Made by a program: the position numbers and the translations under genes. A stretch of 64,000 nt of DNA from a bacterium (GTDB lineage Bacteria; Desulfobacterota; Deferrisomatia; Deferrisomatales; Deferrisomataceae), in contig JALUTY010000078.1 in the NCBI GenBank assembly GCA_027021615.1, positions 1 to 64,000 on the forward strand, in the 5' to 3' direction. Under the pieces are notes generated by a model. That model had not been told where the DNA came from, searched no databases, and worked only from the letters and a program-made list of their open reading frames with translations. Positions 917 through 59,545 of the stretch are shown one piece after another. Position 1 is the stretch's first letter. Every line of letters starts with the position of its first letter.

Positions 917-1802
917 GAGCCCCTCGGCCCTGGAGCGCCTGGACGACGGCCGGCTCCGGGTGGAGAAGGGGCCCATGAGCCTGGTGATCGCCGCCCGGTG
1001 GGCGGGCCGGCCCCGGGCCGGGGAGCTGGTGCTCGCCGGGAGGTACGCCCTCCAGATCCTGGACGAGCTGGCGGCCCACCGGGCGCTGCTCGGCGTGGAC
1101 GCCCGGCGGATCCGCAACCCCGTGGCGCTTCCGCCGGTGGTCCGGGCCATGTGGGAGGCTGCCGCCCGGTTCCCGGACCGGTTCGTGACCCCCCTGGTGG
1201 CCGTGGCGGGCACGGTGGCGGACTTCGTGGCCGACTTCCTGGTGCGGCGGGGGGCGACCTGGGCCGTGGTGAGCAACGGCGGCGACGTGGCCCTGCGGCT
1301 GGCCCCGGGGGAGCGGGCCTCCGTGGGGGTGGTCGAGCGGGTCTCGGCCCCGGCGCCCGCGGCCCGGTTCGAGGTGGGGTCGGGCGACGGCGTGGGCGGG
1401 GTGGCCACCAGCGGCCTGGGGGGCCGGAGCCTCACCCTGGGGGTGGCCGACGCGGTGGTGGTGGCCGCCTCCTCGGCGTCCGTGGCGGATGCCTGCGCCA
1501 CCCTGGTGGCCAACCAGGTGAACGTGGACTCACCGGCCGTGTGCAAGGCCCCGGCCGAGGAGGTGGACCCGGCCACGGACCTCAAGGGGCTCGAGGTCAC
1601 CGTGGGGGTGGGCCGGCTGGAGTCCCACGAGGTGGCCGCGGCCCTGGACCGGGGCGAGGCCGAGGCCCGGCAGATGCTGGAGGCCGGCCACATCCGGGGG
1701 GCGATCCTGTCGCTGCGGGGGGAGCGGCGGTTCGTGGGATGGCCGGGGGAGGAGGGGGTGGAGGGGTTCGGGCGTTGGGACGTTGGGAGGTTGGGACGTT
1801 AG
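909..1802 (+). CDS. UPF0280 family protein (ApbE-like)
   Basis: This 297-aa protein resembles the UPF0280 family, which is structurally related to ApbE flavin transferases but has no settled reaction. Family-like features are the ALLG-DARRIRNP region near residue 60, VAGTVADFVADFL near residue 97, VSNGGDVALRL near residue 120 and a Gly/Ser-rich C-terminal half. The ATG lies inside the upstream gene with an 8-bp overlap. The last ten or so residues (FGRWDVGRLGR) are encoded by an intergenic-type 8-bp repeat array, so the natural stop may once have been upstream and the tail is probably not functional. Confidence 0.75.
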   Translation: MARSPSALERLDDGRLRVEKGPMSLVIAARWAGRPRAGELVLAGRYALQILDELAAHRALLGVDARRIRNPVALPPVVRAMWEAAARFPDRFVTPLVAVAGTVADFVADFLVRRGATWAVVSNGGDVALRLAPGERASVGVVERVSAPAPAARFEVGSGDGVGGVATSGLGGRSLTLGVADAVVVAASSASVADACATLVANQVNVDSPAVCKAPAEEVDPATDLKGLEVTVGVGRLESHEVAAALDRGEAEARQMLEAGHIRGAILSLRGERRFVGWPGEEGVEGFGRWDVGRLGR

Positions 1803-1916
1803 GACGTTGGGAGGCTGGGGTCCTGTTTCCTGCTTGAAGCGCTGGAAGATGAAAGGGGTTTCTTGCCTCCCAGCGTCCCAGCTTCCTAACGTCCTAACGT
1901 CCTAACGTCCCAGCGG
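1773..1916. repeat. inverted pair of degenerate 8-bp tandem arrays
   Basis: The first arm (1773-1820) has about six units of CGTTGGGA/CGTTAGGA/GGTTGGGA. The second arm (1866-1916) has the reverse-complement type (CCTAACGT, CCCAGCGT), again about six units. A spacer of about 45 bp containing GCTTGAAGCGCTGGAAGAT separates them. The second arm ends in AGCGGAAGTTTCTG just before the ribosome binding site of the 1941 gene. The two arms could form a long hairpin. The same octamer class recurs before many genes in this window. Confidence 0.8.
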
Positions 1917-10319: not shown

Positions 10320-10602
10320 TACCAAGTTGCGTTCAAAGCCATCAGACCCCTGAACCGGCGGGGCAAGGGGCCTGGTGGAGCGCCGGGCGTGGCTCCGACA
10401 GTCGCTGCCCCCGGCACTCAGCCGATACCCGCTCTGCCGGTGACCCGAAATGTATTGCCAACGTTCGCTTTCCTACCGTTCATGGGACACTCGGGCTGAG
10501 TGTCGGGGGCAGCGTGAGTCGGATGCTGCACTCACGCACGGCCGGAACCAGGCCCCTTGCCCCGGCCCCCGGATGGATCTTGGTTGGAACGCAACTTGGT
10601 AT
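10319..10602. repeat. palindromic repeat A, copy 1 (284 bp)
   Basis: The element is bounded by a perfect 16-bp inverted repeat, ATACCAAGTTGCGTTC at the left and GAACGCAACTTGGTAT at the right. A second inverted pair lies inside (GGGGCAAGGGGCCTGG against CCAGGCCCCTTGCCCC), and a third near the centre (GCTGCCCCCGGCACTCAGCC against GGCTGAGTGTCGGGGGCAGC), so it can fold on itself almost completely. The other copy (57483-57766) is in opposite orientation, exactly the same length, and differs at about 13 positions by eye. The left end overlaps the mqnA stop codon. No open reading frame of note. Confidence 0.9.
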
Positions 10603-10699
10603 CACGCGCCGCAGCGGCCCCTGCGAGGCCGTTCAGCGAAGGAGGGGCCCCCAGCCCCACCCCCTCGGGAATGCACGAACTTGCGAACCATGACACTAG
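10603..10699. repeat. truncated copy of palindromic repeat B
   Basis: Starting at the base after the repeat A terminus, the sequence matches the right half of repeat B (CACGCGCCGCAGCGG, CCCCTGCGAGGCCGTTCAGC, GGAGGGGCCCCCAGCCCCAC) and ends in CTAG like the full copies. The left half is missing and an internal 15-bp piece is absent. This fits repeat A having inserted into or replaced part of a B copy. Confidence 0.85.
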
Positions 10700-12154: not shown

Positions 12155-12290
12155 TCGGTCGTCGGTCTACGGTCTACGGTCCGGGGCCTTCGGCCTGCTG
12201 GGCAGCTAGGCGGCCAGGCGGCTCCCATGCTCGCGGAAAAGGTTTTTTCTAGTCTCCAGTCTCCAGTTTCTAGTCTCTAGAAGTCCGGCT
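12155..12290. repeat. repeat leader module between bamQ and bamA
   Basis: In the sense of bamA (minus strand) the order is: about four 7-bp units of AGAAACT/GGAGACT type (overlapping the bamQ stop), 8-bp units of GCCGCCTA/GCTGCCCA type, a hairpin AGGCCGAAGGCC, then about four 7-bp units of GACCGTA type, then the bamA ribosome binding site. Confidence 0.75.
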
Positions 12291-15786: not shown

Positions 15787-15840
15787 GCATCGGTCTACGG
15801 TCTACGGTCGACGGTCTGCGGTCTCCTGGTCCGGCGTTCG
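15787..15840. repeat. 7-bp tandem array (CGGTCTA type)
   Basis: Units read CGGTCTA, CGGTCTA, CGGTCGA, CGGTCTG, CGGTCTC and then decay. In bamR sense they read GACCGTA and lie 20 bp before its ribosome binding site. The array also encodes the stop and C-terminal residues of the four-helix-bundle gene. Confidence 0.85.
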
Positions 15841-16218
15841 GTCTTTGGTTTTCGCGGTCTTCAGGTATCGCATCAGGCCGGAGATCAGTCGGGTGGTCTC
15901 TCCAGTCACTCTGCAGAGTTCTTCGAACTCCGAATCGGCCAACAAGCCGACATCGTGGGCGAGATACAAGAGGGATCGCACCTCTGCGGCCGAACCTCGG
16001 GCGACGCCCAAAAAATGCAGGAACTCTTTGTCCGAGCGCCGTTCGAACCCCTCGGCGATGTTCGACATCGTGGAGATGGCAGCACGGCGGATCTGGCTCA
16101 CCAGGTTGTGGTCCCGGGCGAAAACGCCTGTTCCGCTGACCCGATACACGTGGCGACTGAGCTCCCGAGCCTTCTGCCACGCCTCGACATCTTCGAACCG
16201 CTGTATCCTCGCCCCCAT
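15802..16218 (-). CDS. four helix bundle protein (23S rRNA intervening-sequence-protein family)
   Basis: This 138-aa, mostly helical protein resembles the PF05635 four-helix-bundle family. FEDVEAWQKARELSRHVY opens it, RDHNLVSQIRRAAISTMSNI and AEGFERRSDKEFLHFLGVAR form the characteristic middle, and AAEVRSLLYLAHDVGLL follows. Members occur in 23S rRNA intervening sequences, as accessory proteins of diversity-generating retroelements and as orphans; their biochemical role is unsettled. Here the gene sits inside a catabolic cluster and is bracketed by heptamer arrays in opposite orientations. Its last 15 or so residues (DRTPDQETADRRP) are repeat-encoded. Confidence 0.88.
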   Translation of the reverse strand: MGARIQRFEDVEAWQKARELSRHVYRVSGTGVFARDHNLVSQIRRAAISTMSNIAEGFERRSDKEFLHFLGVARGSAAEVRSLLYLAHDVGLLADSEFEELCRVTGETTRLISGLMRYLKTAKTKDRTPDQETADRRP

Positions 16219-16240
16219 GTGTGCTCCCCCGCCCGAAACG

Positions 16241-16280
16241 GGCGACCGACGACCGGCGACCGATGACCGGAGACCGACGC
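16241..16280. repeat. 7-bp tandem array, inverted relative to 15787-15840
   Basis: Units read CGACCGA, CGACCGG, CGACCGA, TGACCGG, AGACCGA on the plus strand, the reverse complement of the array on the other side of the four-helix-bundle gene. The array lies between that gene and the SDR stop codon. Confidence 0.85.
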
Positions 16281-17030: not shown

Positions 17031-17051
17031 GGTTTCCTCCTTTGGAAAACT

Positions 17052-17171
17052 TCGGTCGACGGTCGACGGTTTTCGGTCTTTGGTCTGCAGTCTTCGGTCC
17101 ACGGTTGCCCTGCCCGGACCCTCCGGCGACGGAGAGTCCTCCCCCCCACGACCGAGGACCGTGGACCGCCG
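17052..17171. repeat. inverted pair of heptamer arrays with a short spacer
   Basis: From 17052 to 17112 about eight units of CGGTCGA/CGGTTTT/CGGTCTT type lie directly upstream of the SDR ribosome binding site. From 17148 to 17171 three units in the opposite orientation (CGACCGA, GGACCGT, GGACCGC) abut the thiolase stop. The spacer of about 35 bp has no gene. The layout equals that around the four-helix-bundle gene, but without a gene inside. Confidence 0.8.
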
Positions 17172-18365
17172 TTACGACTCCCGGCGGATGATCATGGCCA
17201 TGGTGGACCCGCCGCCGCCGCAGATCGAGGCGATGCCCAGCTCCTTGTCCAGGCGCTTGAGCGCATGGTACAGGGTCACGATGATCCGGGCGCCCGAGCA
17301 GCCGGTGGGGTGCCCCAGGGCGATGGCGCCGCCGTGGACGTTGAGCTTGGACCGGTCCCAGCCCAGCATCCGCTCGTTGGCGATGATCTGGGCGGCGAAC
17401 GCTTCGTTCACCTCGATCAGGTCCATGTCGTCCAGGGTCATGCCGGCGCGCTCGAGCGCCCGGGGGATCGCCACGCCCGGCCCCTCGCCCATGTACCGGC
17501 CGTCCACCGCGGTCTGGGTGTACTCGACCACCGAGAACAGGGGCTTCAGGCCCTTTTCCTCGGCCTTCTCCCGGGTCATGGCCACCAGGAACGCGGCGCC
17601 GTCGGTCAGGCCGCACGAGTTGCCGGCGGTCACCGAGCCGTCCTTCTTGAACGCGGGGGGCAGCTTGGCCATCTGCTCGACGCTGACCTCGTAGCGGATG
17701 GACTCGTCCTTGTCGAACACGATCTCCGGGGTCTTGCGGGTGCCGGGCACCGTGACCGGGGTGATCTCCTCGTCGAACCACCCGTTCTTCTGTGCCTCGG
17801 CCGCCTTGCGGTGGCTGTCGGCCGCGAACTCGTCGAGCTCCCTGCGGCTGAGGCCGTACTTCTCCACCAGGTTCTCGGCCGTGAGCCCCATGGACAGGTC
17901 CGCGATCGGATCGTGGGAGTCGCTCCAGCCGTCCTCGATGGTCACCGGCCCCATGCGGAAGCCCTTCCACCGGTACCCCTTGATCAGGTGCGGGATCGTG
18001 GACATGCTCTCCATGCCGCCGCACAGCACCACGTCGGCCTGGCCCACCTGGATCAGCTGGGTGGCCAGGCTGATAGCCTTCATGCCGGCCGGGCAGGCCT
18101 TGTTGATGGTGACCCCGGGCACGTTCTGGCCCACCCCGCCCTTCAGGGCGGCGGTGCGGGCCGGGTTGACATGGTTGCCCGCCTGGCGGCATGAGCCGAT
18201 GATCGCGTCGTCCACCTCGTCGCCCGACACGTTGGCGCGCCGGAGGGCCTCGCGGATGGGAAACGAGGCCATGTCGTACACCTTCATGTCCTTCAGGGTG
18301 CCTCCGAACCGGCCCATGGGCGTGCGGACGGCGCTCACGAAAACCACGTCGCTGAGTTGGCGCAT
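17172..18365 (-). CDS. thiolase (acetyl-CoA C-acyltransferase)
   Basis: This 397-aa thiolase has the N-terminal VVFVSAVRTPMGRFGG, the nucleophilic Cys in INKACPAGMKA near residue 89 (the usual Ala-Ser-Gly is Pro-Ala-Gly here), VNEAFAAQIIANE near residue 320, and the C-terminal active-site blocks NVHGGAIALGHPTGCSGARI and CGGGGSTMAMII. The start at 18365 follows GAGGGAGAGAG; an alternative start eight codons earlier would place this ribosome site inside the coding region. It probably cleaves 3-oxoacyl-CoA in the beta-oxidation that follows BamA, together with the downstream SDR. Confidence 0.92.
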   Translation of the reverse strand: MRQLSDVVFVSAVRTPMGRFGGTLKDMKVYDMASFPIREALRRANVSGDEVDDAIIGSCRQAGNHVNPARTAALKGGVGQNVPGVTINKACPAGMKAISLATQLIQVGQADVVLCGGMESMSTIPHLIKGYRWKGFRMGPVTIEDGWSDSHDPIADLSMGLTAENLVEKYGLSRRELDEFAADSHRKAAEAQKNGWFDEEITPVTVPGTRKTPEIVFDKDESIRYEVSVEQMAKLPPAFKKDGSVTAGNSCGLTDGAAFLVAMTREKAEEKGLKPLFSVVEYTQTAVDGRYMGEGPGVAIPRALERAGMTLDDMDLIEVNEAFAAQIIANERMLGWDRSKLNVHGGAIALGHPTGCSGARIIVTLYHALKRLDKELGIASICGGGGSTMAMIIRRES

Positions 18366-24299: not shown

Positions 24300-24385
24300 A
24301 CGTCGGTCGTCGGTCGTCGGTGGTCGGTCAATGGTCGGGGCCTTCGGCCCACTGGGCAGCTAGGCGGCCGGGCGGCTCTCGGATT
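24300..24385. repeat. octamer, hairpin and heptamer leader of bamD
   Basis: In bamD sense there are 8-bp units (GCCGCCCG, GCCGCCTA, GCTGCCCA), then GTGGGCCGAAGGCCCC, then about five 7-bp units of GACCGAC type reaching to within a few bases of the ATG. This is the same module order as before bamA. Confidence 0.8.
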
Positions 24386-25197: not shown

Positions 25198-25240
25198 GGC
25201 TGGAAGGCTAGAAAGCTAGAAGGCTGGAAGGCCCAACCCC
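25198..25240. repeat. 8-bp tandem array upstream of bamC
   Basis: In bamC sense CTTCCAGC, CTTCTAGC, TTTCTAGC, CTTCCAGC follow each other without a break, immediately before the CCCACCCGGAG ribosome region. It is the clearest short example of the octamer class. Confidence 0.85.
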
Positions 25241-29857: not shown

Positions 29858-30135
29858 GGGCCTTCGGCCCGCGGGAAGACCGCTGGAAAGCTGGAAGGCT
29901 AGCCCGCATTATTCATGAAACCTTCTGCTGCAACCGCCGATTGCACGCCATCTCGGGGCGTGCTCGCGCCTCGGGGCTCGACGTACCGTCCAGTACGCCT
30001 GCGCCCCTCGTTGCTGCGCTTGCCCCGACCTGACGCACACTCGACGGTTTCGCGACGAACGCTCATGAATAATGCGGGCTAGGAGGCTAGAAGGGTCGTC
30101 GGTCTCCGGTCAGCGGTCGTCGGTCTGAGCCCTTG
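29858..30135. repeat. heptamer, octamer and hairpin leader interrupted by a MITE
   Basis: In the sense of the 29844 gene the order is: heptamers GACCGAC/GACCGCT/GACCGGA (about 30135-30095), octamers CTTCTAGC/CTCCTAGC (30094-30079), the 176-bp MITE, octamers CTTCCAGC/TTTCCAGC (29902-29880), then GCGGGCCGAAGGCCCAAAA and the ribosome site. Confidence 0.8.
29903..30078. mobile_element. 176-bp MITE-like element with CTAG target duplication
   Basis: There are perfect 16-bp terminal inverted repeats, CCCGCATTATTCATGA and TCATGAATAATGCGGG, each flanked by CTAG, which fits a 4-bp target duplication at a CTAG inside an octamer array. The interior is non-coding and has a partial palindrome around CGACGTACCGTCCAGTACG and CCTCGGGGCTCG/CGCCCCTCG. 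It carries no transposase, so it would need one in trans. The transposase family is not determined. Confidence 0.85.
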
Positions 30136-34220: not shown

Positions 34221-34315
34221 TCCCCCGCAGTCCCGCTTCCGTTCCCCACGAGCCTAGGCTACCATGTCGCCCCGGCCCGGCGACCGGAAACCGACGACCC
34301 AAATACTAAGACCTT

Positions 34316-34570
34316 CAAACGTATTGCCAGGGGACGGGGTGGGGGCCTGGCTCCGGCCGGGCGCGAGTGCGGCATCCGATCGCCGCGCCTTCTCATGCCG
34401 CCGCTTGCGCGTCGATCCGTGCCACGATAGCGGAACCCTTGGGATCCTGGGGCGATCCGGACGTTCGGAGGGCGCGGCGAGCTAAGGGGCCGCACCCGGC
34501 GCTCCACCAGGCCCCCACCCCGCACTCCCCAAGGGGAAGGAGGCACGGGCCTGGCAATACTTTCGTTGGA
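34316..34570. repeat. mosaic hairpin repeat D, copy 1
   Basis: The ends are inverted: AACGTATTGCCAGG and CCTGGCAATACTTTCGTTGG. Inside, GGCTCCGGCCGGGCGCGAGT, GCATCCGATCGCCGCGCC and CTAAGGGGCCGCACCCGGCG recur at 59278-59536. A heptamer fragment (CGACCGGAAACCGACGACC) precedes it at 34280-34300. Confidence 0.85.
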
Positions 34571-34579
34571 ATTAGTAGC

Positions 34580-39073: not shown

Positions 39074-39133
39074 AGGGGGCGGCCTGTTTGGGAAACAGTG
39101 CTAACCCGACGACAAGGCCGGCTTGTTCCCTAT

Positions 39134-39332
39134 GGAGGGTGGGGCAAGGGACCTGCCTCCGGCCGGGCGCGAAGCCGGGCGTTGAGATTCGCCGCGCAGG
39201 CACGGGACCGAAGAGATGGTTTCATGGCAACTCGGTGGAATCCGAACCATTTCGCGGTCCGAGCGCCAAAGGCGCTGCGCGGCGAGCGAAGGGGCCGCGC
39301 CCGGCGCTCCAGCAGTTCCCTTGCCCCCCGGA
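39134..39332. repeat. mosaic hairpin repeat C, copy 2, inside the rnf operon
   Basis: GGGGCAAGGGACCTGCC at the left and CAGTTCCCTTGCCCCCC at the right are inverted. The core TTCGCCGCGCAGGCACGGGA, CATTTCGCGGTCCGAGCG and AAGGGGCCGCGCCCGGCGCT is the reverse complement of copy 1. Three heptamers of ACGATTC type follow at 39419-39442. The element splits rnfC from rnfD by 420 bp. No terminator with a T-tract was seen in it. Confidence 0.8.
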
Positions 39333-39493
39333 GCCTTGGCAACGGCCCAGGAGCCGCTCTAGTGAACGTGACATCCGGCCAGGGCGGGATGCGATGGGCT
39401 CGGGCAGAACGCTCTGAAACGATTCACGATTTACGATTCACGGACCTTGAGCACACAGCCGGGAACGCAACCTCTGCCATTGGATTTCTGAAC

Positions 39494-57164: not shown

Positions 57165-57400
57165 CCGGCGGCGGGGCATGGGGCCTACTTCCGGCCGCGC
57201 GCGAAGCCGAGCATGAGATTCGCCGCGCAGGCACGGGGCACCGTCGGTGGTTGTATGACAGTTCGGTGGGGCACGAACGAATTCACGGTACGAGCGTTGG
57301 AGGCGCTGCGCGGCAAGCCAAGGAGCCGCACGCGGCTCTCCAGCAGACCCCATGCCCCCTGGACCGTGAGGTGGAGGCGACGAGGTATGGTGGTTCCTAG
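57165..57400. repeat. mosaic hairpin repeat C, copy 3, between trp leader and trpE
   Basis: GCCGGCGGCGGGGCATGGGG at the left and CCAGCAGACCCCATGCCCCC at the right are inverted. The core GAGATTCGCCGCGCAGGCAC and GGCGCTGCGCGGCAAGCC is as in the 39134 copy. The tail GGACCGTGAGGTGG (57361-57375) is the one seen at 8770 and 46545. Confidence 0.8.
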
Positions 57401-59263: not shown

Positions 59264-59277
59264 GGGTTACGAGACCC

Positions 59278-59536
59278 CTCAAGAGTATTGCCGTGGTGCG
59301 GGGTGGAGACTTGGCTCCGGCCGGGCGCGAGTGCAGCATCCGATCGCCGCGCCTTCTCATGCCGTTGTCTGCCCGTCGGTCCAAGCGGCAATAGCGGAAC
59401 CCCAGGAATCCGGTGGCGATCCAGACCTCCGGGGGGCGCGGCGAGCTAAGGGGCCGCACCCGGCGCTCCACCAGGCCTCCACCCCGCACGCCCCGGGGGG
59501 TGGGGGCACGAGTCTCCCAATGTTTCCGTTGGGATT
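59278..59536. repeat. mosaic hairpin repeat D, copy 2, between trpE and trpG
   Basis: It begins AAGAGTATTGCCGTGGTGCG and ends GAGTCTCCCAATGTTTCCGT. The internal blocks GGCTCCGGCCGGGCGCGAGT, ATCGCCGCGCCTTCTCATGC and AGCTAAGGGGCCGCACCCGG are shared with 34316-34570. It separates two genes that are usually adjacent. Confidence 0.85.
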
Positions 59537-59545
59537 CGTATCAAC

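Follow-up and report, generated by a model that had tools for sequence, protein, structure and literature searches.

Genes for four-helix-bundle proteins of the family PF05635 (hereafter IVPs) are usually bracketed by inverted arrays of short tandem repeats, and gene and arrays together point to an unrecognised family of small mobile elements. Apart from a link with rRNA intervening sequences, no function of PF05635 proteins is, to our knowledge, established. The bracketing rule gives them a DNA (or RNA) partner legible from sequence and predicts a binding unit for each protein, which makes a bench test direct.

A PF05635 gene between inverted heptamer arrays

The window (the whole stretch of DNA analysed, 64 kb) sits on contig 78 of the 4.25-Mb, 134-contig genome G000. 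The gene and its arrays lie as follows:

15802..16218, minus strand: IVP (four-helix-bundle) gene, 138 aa, ATG at 16218, stop at 15802-15804
15791..15825, plus strand: left heptamer array, five CGGTCNN units reading inward (TRF 15791-15824, period 7)
16241..16279, minus strand: right heptamer array, inverted, CGGTCNN on the minus strand (TRF)

The protein is a family member by both PF05635 (E 1.8e-31, 108.9 bits; family cut-off 33.8) and TIGR02436 (E 5.3e-32, 110.3 bits; cut-off 24). A Pfam search of the gene between the arms returned PF05635 only, with no Y1 tyrosine transposase gene there. The left array consists of the units CGGTCTA, CGGTCTA, CGGTCGA, CGGTCTG, and CGGTCTC (15791-15825) and overlaps the 3' end of the gene, so that it encodes the protein tail ...ETADRRP. 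The right array reads CGACCGA/CGACCGG on the forward strand and was delimited by TRF as 16243-16279 at period 7 and 16241-16279 at period 14. CGGTCNN thus runs inward from both flanks, bearing out the sequence-only reading that the arrays on either side of the gene face opposite ways, and the arms pair as one 48-nt inverted repeat (15787-15834 with 16233-16280, 77% complementary). This cassette is flanked by protein genes and is not inside a 23S rRNA gene; one neighbour encodes a short-chain dehydrogenase (PF13561), and the other we take to be an enoyl-CoA hydratase-like gene.

Further arrays in the window contain no gene:

17053..17105, plus strand: left arm of a gene-less inverted pair, CGGTCNN
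17145..17168, minus strand: right arm of the same pair, CGGTCNN inverted
12155..12196, plus strand: gene-less CGGTCNN array
30094..30125, plus strand: gene-less CGGTCNN array, GGTCGTCGGTCTCC...
24301..24328, plus strand: gene-less array of CGTCGGT, a rotation of CGGTCGT (TRF and self-match)
1746..1915, no strand assigned: gene-less inverted pair of the octamer CGTTGGGA
25198..25232, plus strand: array of the octamer GGCTAGAA

The gap at 17052-17171 had been described as an empty version of the cassette with a 35-bp spacer; it is a gene-less inverted pair, but the spacer measures ~39-44 bp. The pair also occurs in the sister genomes G001 and G002 with other unit numbers, and the RNA fold of 17045-17175 has a z of -2.18, with 6 of 200 shuffles folding equally well. 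The arrays at 12155 and 30094 share the unit of the window IVP arms. The octamer of 1746-1915 resembles by eye the unit of another IVP of G000 (L004, C118:1583), and the place in G002 orthologous to 25198-25232 holds another octamer array. The window arrays are not chance: self-match segments scoring at least 11 numbered 14 at lag 7 and 17 at lag 8, against one at lag 4 and none at lags 5, 10, 11, and 13, while the high counts at lags 6, 9, and 12 (18, 16, and 11) fall on multiples of three, where codon periodicity is expected.

Other IVP copies in the same genome

Searching G000 with PF05635 gave eight rows; one frameshifted gene accounts for two of them, one per half, so that seven places remain. 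L011 fell below the PF05635 cut-off and was left out of scoring. By eye and by score, five of the seven places are bracketed by arrays, which answers the earlier question whether other copies are array-flanked too, but their units differ. The repeat system of this one genome therefore has several units, several of them with an IVP. Besides the window gene, the bracketed places are:

C118:1583: IVP L004, bracketed by the octamer GGACGTTA
C118: frameshifted IVP L009, bracketed by the octamer GCTGGGAG
C101:2680-3491: tandem IVP pair L007/L008 with TCATCCT arrays, the upstream arm of L008 being weak

L007 and L008 are near-identical; ATCCTTC arrays and inverted copies of them lie between the two genes and after the pair, a layout that looks like duplication by way of the arrays. 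At L006 (C118, in-frame TAG) arms were not detectable. L006 and L009 are decayed copies, and the C118 region around them is presumably one of polysaccharide biosynthesis, judging by gene names.

Bracketing across the phylum and beyond

PF05635 was present in 138 of 247 genomes sampled from the phylum, whereas a control set with E. coli among its members gave no match. The phylum sample comprised 70 loci, mostly one per genome (30 supplied automatically and 40 picked by place from the listed best matches), and 69 after removal of L079 (short flank); as the loci were chosen from best matches, the sample is biased to well-scoring IVPs. The inverted score was the best local alignment of the 245 bp upstream with the reverse complement of the 245 bp downstream. 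Its median was 23 for the 69 IVP loci, compared with 11 for shuffled pairings and 11 for 3,000 same-geometry positions; 59 of the 69 loci exceeded the 95th percentile of these control positions and 34 exceeded the 99th. The best self-match lag was 7 in 101 of 138 flanks and 8 in 17, and the best array period was 7, sometimes 8, and rarely 6 or 9.

PIN and GIY-YIG control genes were drawn from 68 of the IVP survey genomes, with one GIY-YIG locus dropped for a short flank. No PIN control passed the inverted threshold with 260-bp flanks (0/30) and five did so with 520 bp, where three of 30 were tandem on both sides and the IVP count stayed at 59/69. GIY-YIG controls passed in 11 of 29 cases (260 bp) and 13 of 29 (520 bp), with non-tandem repeats in the ten inspected. 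Tandem repeats in both flanks (score of at least 12) were found at 43/69 IVP, 0/30 PIN, and 0/29 GIY-YIG loci. Sampled stretches of 20-40 kb were array-free in nine of 17 IVP-bearing genomes, among them G048, whose IVP L080 is bracketed, and arrays were six times denser near IVPs than elsewhere in the same 40 stretches. The PIN controls and the array-free stretches rule out a base-rate explanation, in which arrays are everywhere and any gene is bracketed.

A GTDB scan listed at least 586 relatives, the best 80 of which were taken; 76 were usable after four (L206, L253, L256, and L259) had been dropped for short flanks. L300, on a 1.1-kb contig, was also left out of the counts. Among these best matches, 54 of 76 loci exceeded the 95th percentile of 2,054 control positions. 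Passing records came from Bacteroidota, Planctomycetota, Chloroflexi, Elusimicrobia, Omnitrophica, Opitutaceae, Akkermansia, Clostridia, Rickettsiales, Thiodictyon, WOR-3, Terriglobia, and others, together with one Methanophagales archaeon (score 18, threshold 17); loci from SAR324, Nitrospirales, and Balneolales failed the threshold. Matches were found in 22 plasmid records, and the eight examined were all cyanobacterial. In five (L333 to L336 and L340) the lag-7 score gives an arm on each side, and the two arms are inverted as judged by eye; L337 is flanked by long heptamer arrays that largely share one direction; and L338 and L339 show a single clear arm each. Ten stretches of viral contigs matched a pattern, and none of these encodes a relative of the window protein.

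Array units track IVP lineage among related IVPs

Units differ between loci, whereas both arms of one locus share a unit; the unit types of distinct IVP lineages include CGGTCNN and GGCTNGGA. Among loci with both arms scored at least 9 and at non-homologous sites, unit similarity over bins of IVP identity from <30% to >=70% was 6.4, 7.0, 7.1, 8.1, 11.7, and 21.4 (nine pairs in the last bin), and period agreement climbed from 0.33 to 1.0. The 80 IVP pairs of at least 60% identity at non-homologous sites had a mean unit score of 12.8, which none of 2,000 permutations stratified by GC quintile reached (mean 7.6, maximum 9.0); GC similarity is thereby ruled out as the cause of the pairing. Over the whole family the rank correlation between unit and identity was weak (0.12; 500 null values reached up to 0.126), which makes the pairing a property of related IVPs and not of the family at large. 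By eye, the wider order contains an octamer clade (L009, L351, L353, L352, L345, and L360) and, around the window protein, a heptamer clade (L342, L343, and L344).

Gene-less arrays follow the same rule: 90 of them from 23 stretches had a score of 15.7 with IVP arms from the same stretch, compared with 7.0 when all arms were used, and 2,000 permutations reached at most 11.0. Arms read inward are G-rich, with G>C in 182 of 224 and G<C in 36; in 80 of 112 loci both arms have G>C, in 22 one does, and in ten neither. Four to five units is the commonest arm length. Using a simple ORF caller, we found the IVP gene in sense to both neighbours at 111 of 135 loci, antisense to both at three, and mixed at 21. 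Gene-less arrays showed a weak preference for co-directional spacers (40/52, compared with 122/194 array-free spacers, p 0.07; 42 of 60 stretches, GC <=56%) and are not confined to them, as 12 of the 52 lie in convergent or divergent spacers.

Presence, absence, and replacement in sister genomes

G001 and G002, which belong to the same genus and have flanks 97-98% identical to those of the window gene, lack the gene. Their site measures 80-82 bp, compared with about 500 bp in the window, and holds a gene-less inverted octamer pair of another unit (GGCTAGGC.../...CCTCCCAGCC). Conservation of the gene at this site without arrays, which had been named as the outcome against a link with the repeats, was thus not seen. 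G003, G005, and one of two G007 copies of the site likewise have no gene and, by eye, contain inverted pairs whose units differ again; neither gene nor inverted pair is present in the second G007 copy, and G008 to G010 have short spacers only. Because the empty allele is common to G001 and G002, gain of the cassette in the window's lineage is the simpler reading.

Two further sites show exchange between these genomes. At site A, G002 has a cassette with the unit GGTNGTT, whereas G000 and G001 lack it and have in common a spacer of 143-150 bp with an octamer array; G005 and G007 carry IVPs at seemingly the same site (homology by eye from the flanks), and that of G007 is from a different clade. 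At site B, G000 and G001 carry octamer-clade IVPs that are 59% identical to each other, and G002 has a heptamer-type IVP whose relatives (75-83%) lie downstream in G001 and G002. IVPs of 77-85% identity also occur at sites whose flanks show no detectable similarity. The two gains, at the site of the window gene and at site A, each exchanged an entire spacer instead of interrupting it, so that no target-site duplication is readable; none was found, and the inverted ends are the tandem arrays themselves.

Along the window, too, many array sites are unlike those of G002. Counts of overlapping three-core CGGTCNN matches are 303 for G000, 332 for G002, and 130 for G001. The best match to the window IVP in G001 and G002 is at most 39% identical, so CGGTC arrays can be common without a close IVP homologue; those of G002 could be relics of a lost gene, reflect a broader specificity, or be the work of another mover.

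Protein structure and candidate partners

The AlphaFold2 model of the window IVP (pLDDT 93.1) is a four-helix bundle whose nearest solved folds are 2gsc (chain D: Z 19.4, rmsd 1.3, 114 aligned) and 2rld (chain E: Z 17.1, rmsd 1.2, 105 aligned). Both entries contain five chains, which fits a pentamer. Avd, the accessory protein of diversity-generating retroelements, is a pentamer. The model resembles it in fold (VIA-align Z 13.6-13.9, 105-110 aligned, rmsd 1.7-2.0 with 4dwl/8ub entries), although this match is barely above that with unrelated bundles (Z up to 13.0) and sequence identity is 8-10%.

A further difference from the Avd systems concerns reverse transcriptase: neither G000 (97.8% complete) nor G002, a one-contig genome, gave an RVT_1 match, and across the 247 genomes the co-occurrence of IVP and RVT_1 was weak (64/138 vs 33/109, odds 2.0, p 0.013). 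Reverse transcriptase as a required partner is accordingly unsupported in G000 and G002, and the earlier hint at a retroelement found no support in G000.

A probable mobile cassette and its alternatives

The IVP gene and its inverted arrays probably form one small mobile cassette, in which the protein would be an agent recognising its own unit and the gene-less pairs would be derivatives. A cassette of ~0.5 kb would enter intergenic spacers, mostly in sense within a co-directional gene pair, and could replace their prior content. Each IVP lineage would have its own unit, normally 7 nt long (8 nt in one clade near the window and, in rare cases, 6 or 9 nt), made of a conserved core and a few variable letters. 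The IVP would act as a pentamer, as the solved homologues appear to be, with each subunit reading one array unit; arms of four to five units would, as a guess, suit one unit per subunit. The loaded inverted pair may then be copied or moved with host enzymes, and gene-less inverted pairs would be left behind or mobilised in trans, as REPINs are in relation to RAYTs. No enzyme for cutting or joining was identified in the analysis of the cassettes.

The sequence-only reading had left open whether the gene is cargo of the repeats or an agent for them. A link of either kind is supported by the absence of the gene from the sister sites, the generality of the bracketing, and units that track lineage. 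This last result favours an agent or dedicated partner over chance cargo. Some observations count against a mobile cassette: the site-B IVPs of G000 and G001 carry different octamers, L006 lacks detectable arms, the unit-identity correlation over the whole family is weak, neither a target-site duplication nor an enzyme was found, whole-spacer exchange is unlike a simple insertion, some control loci passed the inverted score (PIN 5/30 at 520 bp, GIY-YIG 11/29 at 260 bp), and array density did not differ significantly between 17 genomes with an IVP and 16 without (p 0.056). This density result and the abundance of CGGTC arrays without a close IVP keep our confidence in a mobile agent moderate.

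Array pairs might instead spread or slip alone or by another agent and serve as landing pads, which the IVP gene enters as passive cargo by recombination between same-unit arrays; the pairing of units with proteins would then reflect which arrays a gene can recombine with. The abundance of CGGTC arrays in both sisters, the turnover of arrays at IVP-free sites between closely related genomes, and the tandem L007/L008, whose intervening arrays look like array-mediated recombination, all fit this. We nevertheless consider it unlikely, since IVPs can be bracketed in genomes of which sampled stretches are array-free (9/17, as for L080 in G048), both sisters have an octamer pair with a different unit where the gene entered in G000, and the landing-pad reading does not explain why the IVP family should be the cargo when PIN genes are not (0/30 at 260 bp, 5/30 at 520 bp).

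An RNA-level element akin to the 23S rRNA intervening sequences is less probable still. Here the arms would pair in the transcript, and RNase III would cut the resulting stem and so release the IVP cistron from a polycistronic message, with RNA as the route of any spread. The strong sense orientation (111 vs 3) agrees with this, as does the RNA fold of the window cassette, which is better than 99 of 100 shuffles (z -2.56). The Coxiella intervening sequence, an S23 ORF within terminal inverted repeats, is cut by RNase III in vitro according to the accessible portion of its description (PMC4990558). Identity across arms is, however, not above that between units within an arm (0.665 vs 0.697; 86 loci, p 0.06), so selection for pairing beyond the unit is not apparent; this rejects stem pairing as the selected property and speaks for unit recognition. 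The RVT_1 results above and the 12 of 52 gene-less arrays in convergent or divergent spacers also argue against an RNA-level element.

That the IVP binds the arrays as auto-operator and global regulatory sites, with inverted pairs serving as operators or terminators and the gene not mobile as such, is very unlikely: gene-less arrays do have the same unit as the IVP of their stretch, and similar inverted pairs in Geobacter metallireducens are called predicted global regulator binding sites in the available part of PMC2700814, but orthologous sites show presence, absence, and replacement, closely related IVPs sit at unrelated sites, and several IVPs of one genome have different units, all of which speaks against it.

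The mobile-cassette reading may extend further. We propose, tentatively and as something quite possible, that IVPs are pentameric sequence-specific readers of tandem 7-mers, with one unit to each subunit, that with their inverted arrays they are widespread mobile elements of Bacteria and some Archaea, and that the scattered heptamers and octamers familiar for decades from cyanobacteria, Xanthomonas, Geobacter, and others are gene-less copies. This would offer a single origin for short tandem repeats that have separately been called regulator sites, quadruplexes, or fingerprints.

Relation to known systems

Arrays alone are known, and so are IVP genes alone, from rRNA intervening sequences and, by fold, as relatives of Avd. 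In RAYT-REPIN systems, a small gene is flanked by inverted copies of a repeat, and gene-less inverted pairs are dispersed in intergenic space; the RAYT is a Y1 tyrosine transposase and the REPIN repeat a palindrome. The likeness lies in the gene-less pair at 17053-17168, the CGGTCNN matches across G000, and the 90 unit-sharing gene-less arrays. The IVP differs in being a four-helix bundle, and the repeat in being a tandem array of 6-9 nt units. Cyanobacterial STRRs are also known short repeat arrays.

The 23S rRNA intervening sequence of Coxiella burnetii is 428 nt long, has terminal inverted repeats around an S23 ORF, and is described as a selfish element of unclear origin (PMC4990558, accessible portion). 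Its S23p is equated with the PF05635 family by name alone, the comparison here being made without its sequence. It resembles the window cassette, which has 48-nt inverted arms around an IVP gene, a gene that is in sense to both neighbours at 111 of 135 loci (from gene layout). The window cassette differs in that it lies between metabolic genes and not in rRNA, tandem arrays of a lineage-specific heptamer form its inverted ends, and gene-less copies of its repeat are spread over the genome.

Heptamers of Xanthomonas and Nostoc (GGGAATC and GGGGA(C/T)T) are G-rich, combine a core with variable positions, and occur preferentially in four units, with 70 and 75 convergently oriented inverted pairs in two Xanthomonas genomes (PMC4692102). 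In the accessible portion of that paper, G-quadruplexes are proposed, no general link to mobile elements is reported, and no mention of xcc05, S23, or a helix bundle was found. X. campestris has both GGGAATC pairs and the solved IVP homologue XCC0516 (2gsc). Geobacter metallireducens has tandem repeats of 7-8 nt that are paired on opposite strands at variable distances and differ in being read as putative IHF/HU-type regulator sites, with no IVP link in the available part of the text (PMC2700814). The TAACTGA repeats of Beggiatoaceae are likewise already known, as the accessible part of PMC4679880 indicates. Within the partly accessible literature searched, which covered neither preprints nor most subscription papers, PF05635, S23, or four-helix-bundle genes were not tied to tandem heptamer arrays.

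Other repeats and gene neighbourhoods

The flanks of ten GIY-YIG control genes (L152, L153, L159, L165, L172, L174, L176, L177, L178, and L181) contain inverted intergenic repeats of several families, such as GTCATTCCGGCGAAAGCCGGAATCCAG, CCGTTCACCCTGAGGCTCTCGAAG, and TGTCATTGCGA..., and small nuclease genes often lie between inverted copies. By analogy, the GIY-YIG genes could be agents of their flanking repeats, as RAYTs are of REPs.

Alignment of the window with positions 2850000-2949999 of G002 gave blocks mostly 95-98% identical, between which many intergenic spacers are exchanged whole with sharp borders, arrays and MITE-like elements alike. The MITE-like spacers, of ~170-400 bp, lie at 34305-34576, 39083-39493, 57182-57348, and 59272-59544, and also at 10330-10615; they have long GC-rich inverted ends (GGGGCAAGGGGCCTG.../...CAGGCCCCTTGCCCC and variants) and are absent or different at the orthologous places in G002.

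In the Pseudanabaena and Anabaena plasmids (L337 and L340), the IVP gene lies between cas6 and cas4 of CRISPR loci. The locus of the Anabaena plasmid has the type I-D gene cas1d, and the heptamer arrays of the two plasmids differ.
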